Assembly: GCA_016208915.1 (NCBI GenBank)
Contig: JACQXE010000048.1
Location: forward strand, 1 to 48,816
Length of the DNA: 48,816 nt
Source: Nitrospirota bacterium
Lineage (GTDB): Bacteria > Nitrospirota > Thermodesulfovibrionia > Thermodesulfovibrionales > UBA1546
Direction: 5' to 3'
The position numbers and the translations under genes were made by a program. Positions 40,414-48,816 of the stretch are shown here, one piece after another; within the stretch, counting starts at the first letter, position 1; the number at the start of each line of letters is the position of its first letter. Below the pieces are notes generated by a model. It was not told the origin of the DNA and ran no database searches. It saw nothing but the letters and a program-made list of their open reading frames with translations.

Positions 40414-43400
40414 ATGCCTGAAAAGGACAGCATAAAGCAAAGACCTATAACAGACCTTACCTTTTTTACTAACGAACCAGAGCATTCCCTTTTAGACAGA
40501 TTTAAAGTAACCATCGAGCACAATACCCGCTTCTTTGATGTGCTTGTTGGTTTTTTCAGGACAAGCGGATTTTTCAACCTCTATAAGTCCCTTGAGAAAA
40601 CAGAGAAAGTTAGAATCCTTGTTGGTATAAGCCTCAACAGACAAGCATACGAATTAATGAAAAAAGCAAATCCCCCCTCGCCCCCCTTTAGCAAAGGGGG
40701 GATGGGGGGATTTTTCCACTTATCCCACAGTGAGGCAAAAGATGATTTTAAAGAAAATGTAATCTCTGAAATGGAGAACTCTTCTGATAAACCAGAAGTT
40801 CAGGAAGGTGTCGAGAAGTTCATTGAATGGATTAAATCCGGCAAGCTGGAGATCAAGGTATATCCACATACCTCTATCCATGCAAAGGTCTATATAATGA
40901 CCTTTGGCGAGGGGGATAGGGATGTCGGAAGAGTTATCACAGGTTCAAGCAACTTTACCGAAGCTGGTTTTATAGATAATCTCGAATTTAACGTAGAGCT
41001 TAAAAATAGGGCGGATTATGATTTTGCCATCAAGAAATTCAATGAACTCTGGAATAAGTCAGTTCCTGTGTCAGAGGATTATATAGAAACAATTAATACC
41101 AAGACCTGGCTCAACAACAGTATCACACCATATGAACTTTATCTGAAATTCCTCTATGAATATTTCGGTGAAAAGATTAGCAGGACGACTGAAGATATAT
41201 CTTCCACATACTTGCCTGAGAACTTTGTTGAATATCAGTATCAGAAAGAAGCAGTTGTTGATGCTAAATCAAAGCTTGAAGAATACGGCGGAGTGTTTCT
41301 TGCTGATGTCGTAGGCTTGGGCAAGACTTATATCTCAGCGCTCCTTGCTCAGCAGCTAAGCGGCAAACATCTTGTGATTGCCCCTCCTGCACTTCTTGAT
41401 GAGCAAAACCCCGGCTCATGGAGAAATGTATTTAATGATTTTGGCGTCAGAGGGACATACTATAGATCTATAGGCAAACTGGATGACATTATCAAAGAAG
41501 GAACGGACAGATATACTAATGTCTTTATTGATGAGGCTCACCGATTCCGTACAGAGACAAATATCAGCTATGAAATGCTTGCACAGATATGCAGAGGGAA
41601 AAGGGTGATTCTGGTTTCAGCCACGCCCCTTAACAATACGCCTAAGGACATCTTAAGCCAATTGAAACTGTTCCAGAAAGCCCGTAATTGCACCTTGCCT
41701 AATCCAAAAGTCCGTGACCTTGAGAAGTTCTTTAACCGTCTTTATGAAAGACTTAAAAATCTTGACAGACTTGAAGACTATGATGAATTTATTAAAGTAA
41801 CCAAAGAGAATGCAAAAGAGATAAGAGAGAATATTCTTAAATATCTGATGGTAAGGAGAACCAGAAACGAAATTGAAAAATATTTTGAAGACGACCTTAA
41901 AAAGCAGGGGTTAAGGTTTCCTGAAGTTGCAGACCCTGTATCTGTTTTTTACGAATTTGACAATGTTCTTGATAAAGTTTTTACAAGCACGATAGAACTG
42001 ATAACCAAAAGCTTTAAGTATTCAAGATACATGCCGCTCCTTTATTTAAAACCTGGGATTAGAGAACTCACTCAGCCAGAAGAGCTCTCCCAAGAGAATA
42101 TGGGAAAATTTATGAAGATTCTCCTTGTCAAACGCCTCGAAAGCAGTTTCTTTGCATTCAAAAACACCCTCGGCAGGTTTATAGGCTCGTATGAGGCATT
42201 TATCAGGGAGTACGACAAGGGAAGGGTTTTTGTAAGCAAAAAGCACATAAATAAGATTTTTGAGTTTCTGGAAGATAATGATGAAGATGCAATCCAGCGA
42301 CTAATAGATGAAGATAAGGCAGAGGAATATAAGTCAGGGGACTTTGAGAAAAACTTTAGAGATAAGTTAGAGAATGATTTGAAGATTCTAAAACAAATCA
42401 ATGATATGTGGGCAGAGATAGACTATGATCCTAAAATCAATAAATTTCTTAATCTGCTTGGGAGCGACAACATTCTTAAAGAAAACAAGCTGATTGTCTT
42501 TACTGAATCTAAAGAGACCGCAGACTACGTTGTAGAAAATATAAGCAAGAAATTCGGAAATATTGTGCTTGGGTTCTCAGGGCGCTCTGGTGCCGCTGAA
42601 AAAGAAAAGGTTATAGAGAATTTTGATGCCAGAGCACGCAATCCCAGGGATGATTATCGGATTCTAATTACTACAGAAGTTCTTTCAGAAGGTGTCAGCC
42701 TTCACCGGTCCAATGTCGTTATAAACTACGATATCCCATGGAATCCAACAAGGGTTATACAGCGTGTAGGCAGAATCAACCGTGTAGATACAAAATTCGA
42801 GAAAATCTATGCATACAATTTCTTCCCTACAGTTCAGGCCGAATCCGAAATTGGATTAAAAGCTGCGGCAGAAACCAAGATTAATGCCTTTATTGAAATG
42901 CTCGGTGCTGATGCAAAGCTGCTTACTGATGGTGAACCCATTAAATCACACGAAATATTTAACCGCTTAAGCTCAAAGAAATTGCTCACAGGCGAGGATG
43001 AGGAAGAGGAAAGCGAACTTAAGTATTTAAAGATTATCCGTGAGATTAGGGACACCAACCCTGATCTTTTTGAAAAGGTAAAACGTTTGCCGAAGAAAGC
43101 AAGAACAGCAAGAAGGATTCAAAATGTCATTGTGAGGAGCGAAGCGACGAAGCAATCTCATGGCTCTGTCCTTACATTCTTCCGCAAAGGAAAGCTTCGG
43201 AAGATATTCCTTGCTGATAAGAAAAGCATTGAAGAGGTAGACTTTTTCAGGGCAGCAGATATCTTAAGAGCAGAAAAAGACACTCCAAAAGAGTCTTTAC
43301 CTAAGGACTTTTATGGTTTTCTGGATGCGAATAAAAAAGAGTTCGAGCTGGCAACAGCGGATGAGATAAGGCACTTAACACATCCGGGCAGCAGAAGTTA

Positions 43401-43698
43401 CGAATCAAGACTGTTACAGATTATTAAGGCTATAAAAAATGATAAGAAGTTTACAGAGGATGACGAGGAATATCTTAAAAAACTCCTGAAAGTGTTAGAA
43501 GAAGGCTCGCTTCCGAAACAGACTGCAAAAAAGTTAATAAACGCTGCTAATGCTGATAAAATAAAAGATCCGTTAAAGTTATTGGCAATATTCAGAAGCG
43601 GTGTGCCGCAGGAGTTTTTCAAAGAACATATCTCTGAATCCGCAGCCGAGACCTCAGGGCCAAGAGAGGTGATTCTCTCAGAATATCTGATATGCTAA
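40414..43698 (+). CDS. PLD-nuclease / SNF2-type helicase fusion of a defence system
   Basis: The 1094-residue protein joins an N-terminal phospholipase-D-type nuclease (HAK at 156-158, GSSNFTEAGF at 177-186, an HxK...N/S motif) to a superfamily 2 translocase. The helicase motifs are Walker A VGLGKTY (from 300), DEAH (373-376), SATPLNN (402-408), and the C-terminal VLSEGVSL and QRVGRINRV (about 785). Such fusions occur with adenine methylases in restriction-like and phage-defence loci, where they would cut and translocate unmodified DNA. Two repeat insertions are translated in frame (residues 86-101 and about 905-917). The ATG has no Shine-Dalgarno and starts 12 bases after the kinase-remnant stop. 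Confidence 0.85.
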   Translation: MPEKDSIKQRPITDLTFFTNEPEHSLLDRFKVTIEHNTRFFDVLVGFFRTSGFFNLYKSLEKTEKVRILVGISLNRQAYELMKKANPPSPPFSKGGMGGFFHLSHSEAKDDFKENVISEMENSSDKPEVQEGVEKFIEWIKSGKLEIKVYPHTSIHAKVYIMTFGEGDRDVGRVITGSSNFTEAGFIDNLEFNVELKNRADYDFAIKKFNELWNKSVPVSEDYIETINTKTWLNNSITPYELYLKFLYEYFGEKISRTTEDISSTYLPENFVEYQYQKEAVVDAKSKLEEYGGVFLADVVGLGKTYISALLAQQLSGKHLVIAPPALLDEQNPGSWRNVFNDFGVRGTYYRSIGKLDDIIKEGTDRYTNVFIDEAHRFRTETNISYEMLAQICRGKRVILVSATPLNNTPKDILSQLKLFQKARNCTLPNPKVRDLEKFFNRLYERLKNLDRLEDYDEFIKVTKENAKEIRENILKYLMVRRTRNEIEKYFEDDLKKQGLRFPEVADPVSVFYEFDNVLDKVFTSTIELITKSFKYSRYMPLLYLKPGIRELTQPEELSQENMGKFMKILLVKRLESSFFAFKNTLGRFIGSYEAFIREYDKGRVFVSKKHINKIFEFLEDNDEDAIQRLIDEDKAEEYKSGDFEKNFRDKLENDLKILKQINDMWAEIDYDPKINKFLNLLGSDNILKENKLIVFTESKETADYVVENISKKFGNIVLGFSGRSGAAEKEKVIENFDARARNPRDDYRILITTEVLSEGVSLHRSNVVINYDIPWNPTRVIQRVGRINRVDTKFEKIYAYNFFPTVQAESEIGLKAAAETKINAFIEMLGADAKLLTDGEPIKSHEIFNRLSSKKLLTGEDEEEESELKYLKIIREIRDTNPDLFEKVKRLPKKARTARRIQNVIVRSEATKQSHGSVLTFFRKGKLRKIFLADKKSIEEVDFFRAADILRAEKDTPKESLPKDFYGFLDANKKEFELATADEIRHLTHPGSRSYESRLLQIIKAIKNDKKFTEDDEEYLKKLLKVLEEGSLPKQTAKKLINAANADKIKDPLKLLAIFRSGVPQEFFKEHISESAAETSGPREVILSEYLIC
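40668..40713. repeat. CCCCCC/GGGGGG palindromic insert in the helicase gene
   Basis: The insert reads AATCCCCCC, TCG, CCCCCCTTT, AGC, AAAGGGGGG, AT, GGGGGGATT: a nearly perfect palindrome. It encodes NPPSPPFSKGGMGGFF (residues 86-101) between two parts of the PLD domain. The same element occurs twice more in the methylase gene. Confidence 0.85.
43126..43160. repeat. GAGCGAAGCGACGAAGCAAT-type repeat insert in the helicase gene
   Basis: GTCATTGTGAGGAGCGAAGC followed by GACGAAGCAATCTCA is a member of a well-known dispersed bacterial repeat type (often read as GTCATTGCGAGGAGCGAAGC). Here it is read in frame as VIVRSEATKQSH in the C-terminal region of the helicase, near residues 905-916. Confidence 0.75.
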
Positions 43699-43738
43699 AA
43701 TATGCATAAAGAAGGCTTAATTGAAAGGGGTGAGGAAA

Positions 43739-44014
43739 ATGACAAAGTTAGTTGTCGAAACAAACAATGATTGGACCAAGAAGAAGATAGAGGGCGCTAT
43801 ACATACTGAAACTGATTTACTCAGAAAGGCTGTCCAGAGAATTCAGTCTAAATTGCAGGACTTTGAGAATAAATACGGAAAGTTTGACAGAGATTCCTTT
43901 TATGGCAAAGTGGATGACATGGAGCTTATAGAATGGGAAGGCGAACTTGAGACATTGAAAAGATTAAAGGCAAACGTGAAGTCTCTTGAGGAAATAACTT
44001 TTGAATATAAGTGA
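43739..44014 (+). CDS. Putative antitoxin of a TumE-type pair
   Basis: The 91-residue protein is acidic and likely helical (DLLRKAVQRIQSKLQDFENK, then ELETLKRLKANVKSLEE). It overlaps the DUF6516/TumE-like toxin gene by 14 bases, the usual antitoxin-first arrangement. AAAGGGGTGAGG precedes the ATG at 43739. An upstream in-frame TTG at 43721 is less likely. The function is inferred from the neighbour; I do not recognise the family from its own motifs. Confidence 0.6.
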   Translation: MTKLVVETNNDWTKKKIEGAIHTETDLLRKAVQRIQSKLQDFENKYGKFDRDSFYGKVDDMELIEWEGELETLKRLKANVKSLEEITFEYK

Positions 44015-44393
44015 TTACATTGCAGAATTAGAAGCTCTCATTAATTCATCCCCAATAGTATCTTCATACAATTTAACCATTGACCGCAAAACAGCAGATA
44101 TTGCCTTTGTCTCAGGAAAGATTGACTTCAGGGACGGGACAATACTTGATTTCAAAGAGTTTATAGAAGAATCCGAAGGCAGCATAGAGAAATATAAATA
44201 TGGCTATAATTACCGTAAAGGGTCAGATAGTATTTTCAGATATGACAATGCTCCTGATCCAAAGGCTAAAAACATAAAGACCTTTCCTTATCATAAACAT
44301 CTTAAAGACGGAACCATCGCAGAATCAAAAGAGATAGAGCTGGCAGTTGTCCTTGCTGAAATAGAAGGCTCTTATTTTTTGGAAGATAATTGA
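44001..44393 (+). CDS. DUF6516/TumE-like toxin
   Basis: The 130-residue protein matches the DUF6516 (TumE) family. LEALINSSPIVSSYNL near the start, the DGTILDFKEF strand, IFRYDNAPD and the histidine-bearing TFPYHKHL, with the trailing AESKEIELAVVLAEIE, are all family landmarks. TumE-type proteins are toxins of type II toxin-antitoxin pairs; the molecular target is not established to my knowledge. The start is a TTG at 44001 inside the upstream gene, with TGAGGA before it. It ends six bases before the methylase, so the pair is built into the restriction operon. Confidence 0.75.
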   Translation: MNISDYIAELEALINSSPIVSSYNLTIDRKTADIAFVSGKIDFRDGTILDFKEFIEESEGSIEKYKYGYNYRKGSDSIFRYDNAPDPKAKNIKTFPYHKHLKDGTIAESKEIELAVVLAEIEGSYFLEDN

Positions 44394-44399
44394 ACCCTT

Positions 44400-47300
44400 A
44401 TGGAAAAACAGGCAGCAGCAAGACTAATCAAAGACGCCCTCCAGAACCCCTTTGACAGAGAGCGTTTTGTATATTTTATAAAAAATCTCCTTAACAGAAT
44501 TGATGAATCCAAAGCCTTCCATGCCAGAGGATATGTGCCTGAAATATTTAAAGACCATGTCAAAACATATGAACGCATAGGAACCTACACAGACCCTGAA
44601 GATAAAAAAACAGACATTATAATTGTTTATCTCCAAAAAGAAACCGCCCTTGACAAGGCGCGGACAACCCAGCGTAATTTTATAGCCCGATACCTGAAAG
44701 ACAGGGGCGAAAAAGATGCCGGCCTCATCGCATTTGTATCGCCTGATGAAGAAGACTGGCGGTTTTCTTTTGTGAAAATGGAGTATAGGCTTGCCGAGAC
44801 CCCGACAGGCAAAATTAAGGCAGAGGAAGAATTCACGCCTGCAAGGCGCTATTCGTATCTTGTCGGGAAGAATGAAAACAGCCATACAGCCCAGAGTCGC
44901 ATGGTCCCGATTCTGGAGGATGACAAAAACAGTCCCACGCTTGCGAAGCTTGAAGAAGCGTTCAGTATCGAAAAAGTCACAAAAGAATTCTTTGAAAAAT
45001 ACCGCGACCTGTTTATGCGAACAAAAGAGGCATTGGATGAAATCATAAAAGAAAACGAGAAAGTCAAAAACGACTTCTGGCAAAGAAGTGTAAACACTGT
45101 TGATTTCTCAAAGAAACTGTTAGGCCAGATTGTATTCCTCTATTTTCTTCAGAAGAAAGGCTGGTTCGGCGTTGCGCGTGATGCAGGCTGGGGAACAGGG
45201 CCGAGGAATTTCCTGCGGCTTCTCTTTGAAAAAAAGCTCTCAAATTACCAGAATTTTTTCAATGACATACTCGAACCTCTTTTTTATGAGGCGCTGGCAA
45301 TAGAACGTCAGGCTGATTTTTACAGCCGGTTTAATTGCAAGATCCCTTTTCTGAACGGAGGACTTTTTGACCCGATAAACAGCTATGACTGGGTGCATAC
45401 AGATGTGCTTTTGCCTGATGAGCTTTTCTCAAATGATATTAAAACCAAAGAAGGGGACATAGGCATAGGCATTTTAGATGTATTCGACCGTTACAATTTC
45501 ACTGTCAAAGAAGATGAGCCATTGGAAAAAGAGGTTGCTGTTGATCCGGAAATGCTTGGCAAGGTTTTTGAAAACCTGCTCGAAGTAAAAGACAGGAAAT
45601 CAAAGGGCACTTACTACACGCCGCGTGAGATTGTCCATTATATGTGTCAGGAAAGTCTTATCAACTATCTCGACAATGTAATCAACACAAGCAAAGAGGT
45701 AATCGTTGCGCAAAAAGCAGTCCAGAAAAAACTCATTGGCGAAGACGACCCCGAACAGCTTGGAATCATGGAACAAAAGCAGAAGACAGTAATTCCCAAA
45801 GAAGATATTGAATCTTTCATCAGGCACGGCATTTCAGCCATTGAGCATGACAGAAGGGTTGAGGCAAAGGGCCGTGAAACAGAAACCTACAGTTACCGGA
45901 TGCCGGACACAATCCGCCTGAATGCTCGGCTTTTTGATAATGCGCTTAAGTTTGTCAATATCTGCGACCCTGCGGTTGGGTCAGGAGCTTTTCTTGTGGG
46001 AATGATGCATGAGATTATCAGGGCAAGAGAGACCCTTACCACTTACTTCCCCACTTTAGAAAAGGGGGGCAAGGGGGGATTTTCCAAAGAAAGAACCCCT
46101 TACAATTTCAAACATCATGCGATACAGGACTGCCTCTATGGCGTGGATATTGATCCCGGAGCGGTGGAGATAGCAAAGCTGCGATTGTGGTTATCCCTGA
46201 TGGTTGATGAAGAAGATATAAAACATATTAAACCCCTGCCGAATCTGGATTATAAGATTGTCTGCGGAAATTCGCTCCTCGGCATTAATGCGCTTTTTCA
46301 TCATGCAGAGCTTAAGAAGCTTGAAGAACTAAAGGGCAGATTTTTTGAAGAGACAAATTCAAAGAAAAAATCTCAATTGAAAGATGATATCGGCCATCTT
46401 ATCGGCGAGATAACGCATGACGATAAACATTTTGATTTCAAGGTTTATTTTAGCGAGGTGTTCAGCCCCTCTCAGTCCCCCCTTGCCAAGGGGGGAAATC
46501 AGGGGGGTGGTTTTGACATCGTTATTGCTAATCCACCGTATGTCAGGCATGAGACGATTAAGGACATAAAGCCGCAGCTTTCAAAAGATTTCGGCAGCTT
46601 CTATTGCGGCACAGCAGACATTTATACCTATTTCTACAAGAAAGGTATTGATATCCTTAAGCCCAATGGCCATCTTTGTTTTATAGCTCCGAATAAGTTC
46701 ATGAGGGCAGGATATGGAAAAAATACGAGAAGTTTATTTACCACAGAGACAACGCTCAAGATTGTGATAGATTTTTCCGATCTGCCTATCTTTGATGCAA
46801 CAACGTATCCTTCAATTATTCTGCTTGAGAAAAGACTGCCTGTCGTGCAGGATAAAGCCATCGCCGCAACTTTTACTGAAATTGCCCAGCTTGAGCGTGT
46901 GGAGGAGACCCTTTCTATAATCGGTTTTCCAATGCCGATAGCTTCATTGAAAAACGAAGGCTGGAATCTGGAACAGCCTGATGTCATAGCCTTGATGGAA
47001 AAACTGCGCAAGGCTGGCAAGCCGCTTGGAGAATATGTCCATGGGCGATTTTACAGGGGAATATTGACTGGACTTAATGAAGCCTTTGTTATTGACGAAG
47101 AGACTCGTAAGAAACTTATTGCCGAAGATCCGAAGAGCAAAGATATTATTAAACCTTGGTTGAGGGGCCGCGATATTAAGAAGTGGAAGGCTGAATGGGC
47201 AGGACTTTATATTATTAATATCCAGAGCAGTTCTAACCATCACTGGCCTTGGTCTGATGAGAAGCCTGAATCCAAGGCAAAAAAGATATTCAAAGACACT

Positions 47301-47816
47301 TTCCCTGCAATTCATGACCATCTGACACAGTGGAAAGATAAATTGCAGAAGAGAGACGATCAGGGGAAATTCTGGTGGGAATTACGATCATGCGCTTATT
47401 ATGCTGATTTCGAAAGACCAAAAATAATATATCCTGATATTGCCAAAGGCCCTGAATTTACATGGGATGAAAGCAAAGCATTTCTCGGAAATACAGCTTA
47501 TATTATTCCAACCGAGGAAGTATGGCTGTTGGGACTACTAAATTCACAATTAATCTGGTGGCTATACCTTCATATTAGTTCGACTATTCAGGGAGGTTTT
47601 GTTAGGTTTATTGCTCAGTATATGGAACAGCTTCCAATTCCCTTTGCCACTGACAAACAAAAAGCTCCCATTATCACCATCATCGACCAAATCCTCTCCG
47701 CCAAACAAAAAGACCCCAATGCCGACACCTCCGCCCTTGAACGCCAGATTAATAAAATGGTCTATGAGCTATACGAATTAACTCCAGAGGAGATTGAGAT
47801 TGTTGAAAACTCCTAA
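44400..47816 (+). CDS. Eco57I/PglX-like N6-adenine DNA methyltransferase
   Basis: The 1138-residue protein is a large adenine-specific DNA methylase. The entry helix region GTYYTPREIVHYM (403-415), SAM motif I DPAVGSGAF (523-531) and catalytic NPPY (711-714) are present. The C-terminal third (from about 860) resembles TaqI-like target-recognition domains. The N-terminal 200 residues include TDIIIVYLQK and DWRFSFVKMEYRL, as in large type IIG and related enzymes, but I cannot name a nuclease site there. Two palindromic inserts are translated in frame (residues about 550-564 and 689-704, the second six residues before NPPY). It probably modifies host DNA against the PLD-helicase. Confidence 0.87.
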   Translation: MEKQAAARLIKDALQNPFDRERFVYFIKNLLNRIDESKAFHARGYVPEIFKDHVKTYERIGTYTDPEDKKTDIIIVYLQKETALDKARTTQRNFIARYLKDRGEKDAGLIAFVSPDEEDWRFSFVKMEYRLAETPTGKIKAEEEFTPARRYSYLVGKNENSHTAQSRMVPILEDDKNSPTLAKLEEAFSIEKVTKEFFEKYRDLFMRTKEALDEIIKENEKVKNDFWQRSVNTVDFSKKLLGQIVFLYFLQKKGWFGVARDAGWGTGPRNFLRLLFEKKLSNYQNFFNDILEPLFYEALAIERQADFYSRFNCKIPFLNGGLFDPINSYDWVHTDVLLPDELFSNDIKTKEGDIGIGILDVFDRYNFTVKEDEPLEKEVAVDPEMLGKVFENLLEVKDRKSKGTYYTPREIVHYMCQESLINYLDNVINTSKEVIVAQKAVQKKLIGEDDPEQLGIMEQKQKTVIPKEDIESFIRHGISAIEHDRRVEAKGRETETYSYRMPDTIRLNARLFDNALKFVNICDPAVGSGAFLVGMMHEIIRARETLTTYFPTLEKGGKGGFSKERTPYNFKHHAIQDCLYGVDIDPGAVEIAKLRLWLSLMVDEEDIKHIKPLPNLDYKIVCGNSLLGINALFHHAELKKLEELKGRFFEETNSKKKSQLKDDIGHLIGEITHDDKHFDFKVYFSEVFSPSQSPLAKGGNQGGGFDIVIANPPYVRHETIKDIKPQLSKDFGSFYCGTADIYTYFYKKGIDILKPNGHLCFIAPNKFMRAGYGKNTRSLFTTETTLKIVIDFSDLPIFDATTYPSIILLEKRLPVVQDKAIAATFTEIAQLERVEETLSIIGFPMPIASLKNEGWNLEQPDVIALMEKLRKAGKPLGEYVHGRFYRGILTGLNEAFVIDEETRKKLIAEDPKSKDIIKPWLRGRDIKKWKAEWAGLYIINIQSSSNHHWPWSDEKPESKAKKIFKDTFPAIHDHLTQWKDKLQKRDDQGKFWWELRSCAYYADFERPKIIYPDIAKGPEFTWDESKAFLGNTAYIIPTEEVWLLGLLNSQLIWWLYLHISSTIQGGFVRFIAQYMEQLPIPFATDKQKAPIITIIDQILSAKQKDPNADTSALERQINKMVYELYELTPEEIEIVENS
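46047..46085. repeat. CCCC/GGGGGG palindromic insert 1 in the methylase gene
   Basis: The right arm AAAAGGGGGGCAAGGGGGGA matches the helicase insert closely. The left arm is decayed (TTCCCCACTTTAG). It encodes FPTLEKGGKGGFSK. Confidence 0.75.
46464..46514. repeat. CCCCCC/GGGGGG palindromic insert 2 in the methylase gene
   Basis: CAGTCCCCCCTTGCC and AAGGGGGGAAATCAGGGGGG are opposed arms. It encodes SPSQSPLAKGGNQGGG immediately before FDIVIANPPY. This is a third copy of the element in the operon. Confidence 0.8.
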
Positions 47817-47835
47817 ATGATTTTTGAGGCAAAAA

Positions 47836-48018
47836 ATGAGTAACAGTAATGTAAAAAAATATCTTGAACAGTTAAAGGCCGACGGAAAGCTCGATAGCGA
47901 GTTTATTGATGTATTGATAGCTTCTGATATTAACGATGATGACTGGTCTGTTACCGCTACCAAATTATCAGAAGTTATAGATCGAAGATATGCTGAAAAT
48001 AAGAAAAATAAAACTTAG
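47836..48018 (+). CDS. Small acidic protein upstream of the ATPase
   Basis: The 60-residue protein is helical and acidic (VKKYLEQLKADGKLDSEFID, then DVLIASDINDDDWSVTATKL). GAGG precedes the ATG at 47836; the earlier in-frame TTG at 47824 has no support. It starts 20 bases after the methylase stop and overlaps the ATPase start by 29 bases, so it belongs to the same transcription unit. I do not recognise it. A partner or regulator of the ATPase is an inference from the overlap. Confidence 0.6.
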   Translation: MSNSNVKKYLEQLKADGKLDSEFIDVLIASDINDDDWSVTATKLSEVIDRRYAENKKNKT

Positions 48019-48691
48019 CGGTTTTCGGGGTATAAAGACTCCCCAAGAACTGTTTTGCGTCAAAGACGGCGAAACAGTGCCAACATCTTTTGTTTTATTC
48101 GGCGTTAACAGTTCAGGAAAAACATCTTTCATGGACGGCTTAGAGTGGTTTTTGTCGCCCGAAAACAAAATCCAGTGGCTGAGACGAGAAGATGCGCAAG
48201 AGGCGGCTTACCCCCACCAATCCGCACAGCCCGGCGATAGTTATGTTGAGATTGAATTTTTTGAAGATGGCAAAGTAACGAATTTGAGGAAAACATTTGA
48301 CGACAGTCGAAAAACCAAACCAGTTTTATCCGATAAAGATGAATTCCAGAGAATTTATCAATCGTTTGTTATTAAGCCCTATTTTCGCTATATAGAGATC
48401 GTTGAGTTTGTTTTGAACCGAACGGGCGTTGAGAAATACCAGGAACTCGCAAGGTGGATGGGTTTTGAATCTGAACTGAACTTTCAGGAAAGGCTCGCGA
48501 AAATTGTCTCACAACTGGAGAAAAAGAAAGAACAGATAGAAACAAGGCGTGATGACACTTTAAGGGCGATGGGGCAACTCACAAGAAACACGGTCGTCGA
48601 TGATGCCAGTATCATTGCTTATTGTAACAACCTCCTAAAGAGCATCAGTACACCGTCAAACGGAACAAAAATTGCACTTCTAACTCACTGA
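47990..48691 (+). pseudogene. SMC/RecF-like AAA ATPase, truncated by an insertion
   Basis: The 233-residue frame is the N-terminal lobe of an AAA ATPase: IKLSGFRGIKTPQEL at the start, Walker A GVNSSGKT (38-45) and a long helical, coiled-coil-like stretch (FQERLAKIVSQLEKKKEQIE, about 160-180). Proteins of this type (RecF, OLD-like, Wadjet- or septu-like ATPases) normally need a C-terminal Walker B lobe, which is absent. The frame stops at 48691, just before hairpins typical of an insertion-sequence end. It is probably interrupted. The missing half may lie beyond the window. Confidence 0.75.
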
Positions 48692-48756
48692 TAGGTAAGC
48701 CACTGGTTTGACCAGTGTGACTTGAAAAGGTTTGACCTTGCAGAATTAAGTAAGAT

Positions 48757-48802
48757 AAACCTCCAGAGAGGCTTGACGGAGTCAAAGGCTATCTGGAGGT
48801 TT
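48757..48802 (+). promoter_or_regulatory. Hairpin sequestering the transposase ribosome-binding site
   Basis: AAACCTCCAGA (48757-48767) pairs over 11 bases with TCTGGAGGTTT (48792-48802). The latter contains the Shine-Dalgarno GGAGG six bases before the ATG at 48805. The inner part adds CTTGAC/GTCAAAG. Folding would hide the ribosome site, as described for IS200 tnpA mRNA. Confidence 0.65.
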
Positions 48803-48804
48803 AA

Positions 48805-48816
48805 ATGGACAGTTAT
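48805..48816 (+). CDS. Start of a probable transposase gene (partial)
   Basis: Only four codons, ATG GAC AGT TAT (MDSY), fall inside the window. The start is well supported by GGAGG at correct spacing. The IS200-type transposase call rests on the hairpin context, not on the peptide. Confidence 0.4.

Follow-up and report, generated by a model that had tools for sequence, protein, structure and literature searches.

An IS200-group insertion sequence cuts short an SMC/RecF-like ATPase gene in a putative defence cluster of a Nitrospirota bacterium

Introduction

Elements of the IS200 group, for which IS200, IS608 and ISDra2 serve as points of comparison, carry a single Y1 HUH transposase gene, tnpA, without tnpB, with subterminal hairpins at both ends, a conserved short sequence in the left flank and a variable right flank, and they insert without duplicating their target, which is TTAC in IS608. 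Insertion in this family takes place 3' of a short conserved target that flanks the left end of the element (PMC6006769), with TTGAT serving as the target of ISDra2, the excision of which restores a tetA gene (PMC2806898). In Salmonella IS200 the ribosome-binding site is hidden in a stem (PMC12594629). Two described defence systems bear a partial likeness to the genes around the insertion reported here, namely Lamassu (LmuABC, or ABC-3C), in which an SMC/Rad50-like ATPase, LmuB, shares an operon with an LmuA effector and usually LmuC (PMC10586767), and the DUF499-centred BREX-related (Hma) type-2 systems, in which a fusion of an HKD/PLD nuclease and a Swi2/Snf2 helicase stands beside an N6 methyltransferase (PMC12839542).

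The stretch of DNA analysed here (the window; 48,816 nt) is the entire contig C24 of a Nitrospirota genome of 2.51 Mb in 88 contigs. An earlier note on this DNA had proposed that an SMC-like ATPase gene at its end is interrupted by an IS200-like element, and the present analysis bears this out, with a repeated left end beginning at 48681 and a Y1 transposase in two complete related copies of the element elsewhere in the assembly.

Results

The truncated ATPase and its intact homologues

The ATPase ORF (47990-48691; Table 1) encodes 233 residues, with the first ~231 derived from the ATPase and the final residues read inside the element, where the stop TGA (48689-48691) forms the second codon (CAC TGA). 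A Walker A motif is present (GVNSSGKTS), with weak profile matches to AAA_15 (1.8e-7) and SMC_N (1.9e-6), and when set against the 820-aa homologue P0001 the ORF is without the ABC signature, Walker B, the CPxC hook and the C-terminal lobe. The element leaves only about one quarter of the gene, and because a fragment without signature motif, Walker B and C-terminal lobe cannot form a working ATPase, we infer that ATPase function has been lost. The earlier description of an ATPase that stops without its C-terminal lobe just before three hairpins (48701-48803) and a new start codon (ATG 48805) holds in each of these respects.

Table 1. Features of the insertion and of the neighbouring genes in the window.
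Feature	Position	Strand	Basis
PLD-nuclease/SNF2 helicase	40414..43698	+	Pfam PLDc_2, SNF2-rel_dom, Helicase_C; PADLOC HKD+Snf2 1.4e-43
TumE-like toxin gene	44001..44393	+	Pfam TumE 1.6e-20; NCBIfam TumE below cut-off
Type IIG restriction enzyme-methyltransferase (Eco57I class)	44400..47816	+	PADLOC REase_MTase_IIG 1076 bits, full length; Pfam Eco57I, TaqI_C
60-aa ORF overlapping ATPase start	47836..48018	+	62-aa counterpart in same position in L044; without family match
SMC/RecF-like ABC ATPase gene, 5' part (codons 1-230)	47990..48680	+	profile matches; 85% aa identity, residues 1-225, to intact 820-aa P0001 in L044
IS200-group insertion sequence, left end including target, cut by contig end	48681..48816	+	136-nt repeat, at least 99% identical, at the ends of eight further contigs; complete relatives C39, C15
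TAACT, probable target/cleavage pentanucleotide (cut 3' of TAACT)	48681..48685	+	boundary of repeat common to nine contig ends
Hairpin 1, subterminal, 7 bp, 3-nt loop, probable TnpA-binding	48701..48717 (48701-48707/48711-48717)	+	paired in 6/6 copies
Hairpin 2, small, 5 bp, 3-nt loop	48727..48739 (48727-48731/48735-48739)	+	93% of cells paired
Hairpin 3, perfect 12-bp stem, TAAACCTCCAGA (48756-48767) with TCTGGAGGTTTA (48792-48803)	48756..48803	+	
GGAGG, tnpA Shine-Dalgarno in 3' arm of hairpin 3	48795..48799	+	5 nt upstream of ATG 48805
tnpA, first four codons (M D S Y), cut by contig end	48805..48816	+	start context as in C15 (MDNYKSL...), C39 (MQDYRSL...)

The intact close relative P0001 is encoded on contig JAGUWZ010000059.1 (locus L044) of an Omnitrophota MAG, a member of another phylum, with a gene order matching that of the window, in that a small gene of the 60-aa type and the same type of methylase precede the ATPase. 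On a single chain P0001 combines Walker A with a C-terminal signature (LSES) and Walker B (FIVLDD), as well as a CPxC hook, and matches SMC_N (3e-15) over residues 4-638. Past residue 225 its identity to the window protein fades, and the two proteins remain alignable without gaps up to the junction, where CTA ACT in the window faces TTA AAG in L044 with TAA shared, so that TAACT can belong to the ATPase gene itself. Over the aligned fragment, which carries no further lesion, dN is 0.07 and dS is 0.60, and the insertion therefore looks recent.

The absence of stops and frameshifts from the fragment, together with its low dN/dS against L044, would also suit a short protein of 230 residues that is functional in its own right, the insertion then being neutral. 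Such a product would, however, do without the signature motif, Walker B and the C-terminal lobe, and the full-length relatives speak against it, with ten matching frames of 798-820 aa (798-814 aa for those in other genomes) and two exceptions, L030, located close to the end of a contig, and L031, which has 1167 aa. This reading is scarcely credible.

In viral contigs, phages and plasmids the ATPase search returned only distant plasmid homologues (20-27% identity). Distant relatives of 805-814 aa at L023-L025 each follow a small protein of ~155 aa, in a different type of operon; by eye these small proteins resemble a GIY-YIG nuclease. At the DNA level, window 47739-48659 is 84% identical to L044 2347-3266, a stretch that runs from the tail of the methylase across the small ORF into the beginning of the ATPase, and most of the methylase is without DNA-level alignability to L044. 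Such identity with an Omnitrophota MAG beside an unalignable methylase body suggests horizontal transfer, with exchange of the methylase body.

The inserted element and its copies

The 136 nt from 48681 onward are shared by at least nine left ends, that of the window included, which are at least 99% identical and have unrelated upstream flanks. This near-identity of the copies is a further indication that the insertion is recent; the element is small and recently multiplied or active. Each related left end has TAACT or TAATT in front of it, with variable sequence further upstream, which fits the family rule of insertion 3' of a short conserved target, and the probable target TAACT, read in the window within codons 231-232 of the ATPase ORF (CTA ACT), differs from the pentanucleotide of ISDra2 and from the tetranucleotide of IS608. 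At the position of the insertion L044 reads TTAAAG. Most of the other junctions lie outside long frames, with the C24 junction having the longest left-flank frame (235 codons). The exact left-end pattern was found in only two other genomes among 395 of the phylum, and a scan of viral contigs for it returned none. A sigma-70 promoter-like site was sought near the left end and not found, and an Rfam search gave nothing meaningful. The top strand of the insertion sequence is G-rich (positive GC skew) on 8 of the 9 left-end contigs, with gene direction confounded with skew; a G-rich top strand is the expectation for insertion into the lagging-strand template.

The two complete related copies, on contigs C39 and C15, are 86-88% identical and ~620 bp between their ends, each with an intact 141-aa Y1 transposase (Y1_Tnp, E 8e-35 and 1.5e-33) right after the same three hairpins and with tnpA as the sole gene, without tnpB. 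The C39 transposase scores above the NCBIfam cut-off for the IS200/IS605 transposase (NF033573), and that of C15 is related to solved TnpA proteins, IS608 TnpA among them. All of the seven right ends found terminate in ..TATGACT followed by variable flanks, and every right end of sufficient length has the G+C-rich hairpins GCCGTCT/AGACGGC and CTCCCTC/GAGGGAG, so that, with hairpins 1 and 2 on the left, subterminal palindromes are present at both ends. The element belongs to the IS200 group of the IS200/IS605 family, sharing with IS200, IS608 and ISDra2 the lone Y1 transposase gene of its complete copies, the hairpins at both ends, the stem-hidden ribosome-binding site (below) and the conserved left and variable right flank. 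The window copy, in which the readable transposase is MDSY only, is incomplete beside these references, as the contig ends.

Two further observations concern transposases and interrupted frames. At the start of L086 (G000:C55) a right end of the element abuts a stop-free frame of 1017 codons that runs on the opposite strand and may be another interrupted gene. At the opposite end of the window, 60-722 encodes a Y1 transposase of the REP-associated type (Y1_Tnp 8.7e-15, NCBIfam REP model below cut-off), which belongs to another branch than the IS200 element.

Contig C24 stops 12 nt into tnpA, at a branch in the assembly graph. The left-end contig ends have 139-141 nt in common with one another (less in the variant copy C22), which points to an assembly graph with k=141 and a branch where it enters the repeat; the sequence breaks off at 48816 because of the assembly, the contig stopping at a multicopy element, and nothing beyond this position is readable in this assembly. 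A chimeric assembly or scaffold join at the junction was considered and rejected, as the overlap between contig ends equals the k-mer length and falls at a genuine repeat, and the junction of ATPase and element is thus assembled sequence.

Hairpins upstream of tnpA

Folded as single-stranded DNA, the last 141 nt of the window reach -27.5 kcal/mol against a mean of -12.1 for shuffled sequences (z -6.5, 0/200 shuffles), so the hairpins are not a product of chance; folded as RNA, the same stretch gives z -3.8. The earlier note had placed the Shine-Dalgarno GGAGG of the new ORF in the third hairpin, and this is confirmed, with the stem a perfect 12 bp and not 11 bp as first given. Across six left ends, drawn from three genomes, all 12 pairs of hairpin 3 are kept, three of them with changes in both partners, and the covariation score is 0.17, compared with 0.07 when shuffled (0/500) and at most 0.06 with the partners slid. 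The set is small (six sequences), with the paired A-U to U-A exchanges being direct. That a stem-masked Shine-Dalgarno is a known feature of IS200, as the note had also held, is upheld by the literature (PMC12594629), and given this precedent hairpin 3 is likely to act as a brake on tnpA translation.

The missing half of the gene

The remainder of the ATPase was sought across the 88 contigs with both a remote homologue and the 85%-identical homologue, which returned only residues 1-225. Neither was a relative of the PD-(D/E)XK nuclease gene downstream of the L044 ATPase found in the 88 contigs, and none of the seven right-end flanks, when read for an ATPase frame, fits. With the genome rated 98.8% complete, these absences favour an insertion followed by deletion, in which the rest of the gene was lost afterwards, for instance by recombination between copies, leaving the gene permanently dead. 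Against this, nine left ends stand beside only seven right ends, which means that the bin lacks two or more of the right-flank contigs, and binning often leaves out short contigs bounded by repeats; we regard such a loss as conceivable, if rather unlikely. The C-terminal half is either unbinned or deleted, and a larger rearrangement at the locus is possible.

Genes upstream of the insertion

The ATPase sits behind a helicase, a TumE-like gene and a methylase, and it is because of these neighbours that the locus may be taken for a defence-type cluster and the ATPase for a defence protein. Between helicase and methylase, 43721-44393 holds the TumE-like gene with an unassigned 92-aa gene before it.

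The intact homologue resembles the SMC/Rad50-like ATPase of Lamassu, including its CPxC hook, and PADLOC gives LmuB as the best match to both the fragment (E 7e-14) and P0001 (2e-19), although the match is partial and weak. Unlike in Lamassu, no LmuA or LmuC was recognised among the scanned neighbours and the ATPase lies behind a type IIG restriction-methylase; with an LmuB-like match over part of the profile and LmuA and LmuC absent, assignment to Lamassu was rejected (PMC10586767). Similarly, the helicase fusion beside a methyltransferase recalls the BREX-related (Hma) systems, however the scanned operon has no DUF499 ATPase or DUF3780, its methylase matches type IIG and its ATPase is of the ABC/SMC class, and this assignment was likewise rejected, the core DUF499 AAA+ ATPase being unmatched by the scanned operon proteins (PMC12839542).

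Short G+C-rich palindromes lie in frame at 40669-40716, 46047-46082, 46467-46514 and 43126-43164, within the helicase (..NPPSPPFSKGGMGGF.., ..VIVRSEATKQSHG..) and the methylase (..FPTLEKGGKGGF.., ..SQSPLAKGGNQGGGF..). The first two GG-rich ones are alike, and the third resembles sequences of contig C15. They look like protein-embedded palindromic elements.

Discussion

Taken together, an IS200-group element with a Shine-Dalgarno-masked tnpA has very probably inserted into an SMC/RecF-like ATPase gene, truncating and inactivating it. An element of ~0.6 kb, presumably transposed as single-stranded DNA, would have landed just 3' of TAACT within ATPase codons 231-232, co-oriented with the gene, leaving as product an N-terminal lobe with Walker A that would end at the second codon of the element. 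Hairpin 1 would provide the transposase-binding end, with the 12-bp stem hiding the Shine-Dalgarno such that little transposase would be made from readthrough of the ATPase operon.

Whether such an insertion could be undone bears on the fate of the gene. Elements of the IS200/IS605 family excise precisely as single-stranded circles, as in the restoration of tetA by ISDra2 (PMC2806898), and from the sequence, departure of the element from its target would leave the reading frame intact, with ..CTTCTAACT the left-flank sequence expected to join the ATPase remainder directly after excision. The element might accordingly be absent from, or precisely excised in, some cells of the population, with the ATPase switched reversibly, in line with the earlier note's suggestion that precise excision could restore the gene. 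Salmonella IS200, however, is described as apparently non-mobile and silenced by several mechanisms (PMC12594629), and we consider such a polymorphism improbable. Reversible switching might follow from the chemistry of the family, and the stronger proposal, that precise single-strand excision at TAACT restores the ATPase in part of the population, as a form of bet-hedging with the defence cassette active in some cells and silent in others, is very improbable.

The insertion in the ATPase gene is an ordinary insertional inactivation, a fresh example of a well-known phenomenon. It is a clear example of how a mobile element can knock out a single member of a defence-type cluster, and another phylum supplies the intact gene for comparison. 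If excision does occur, the element would constitute a simple, naturally occurring means of switching a defence gene on and off.
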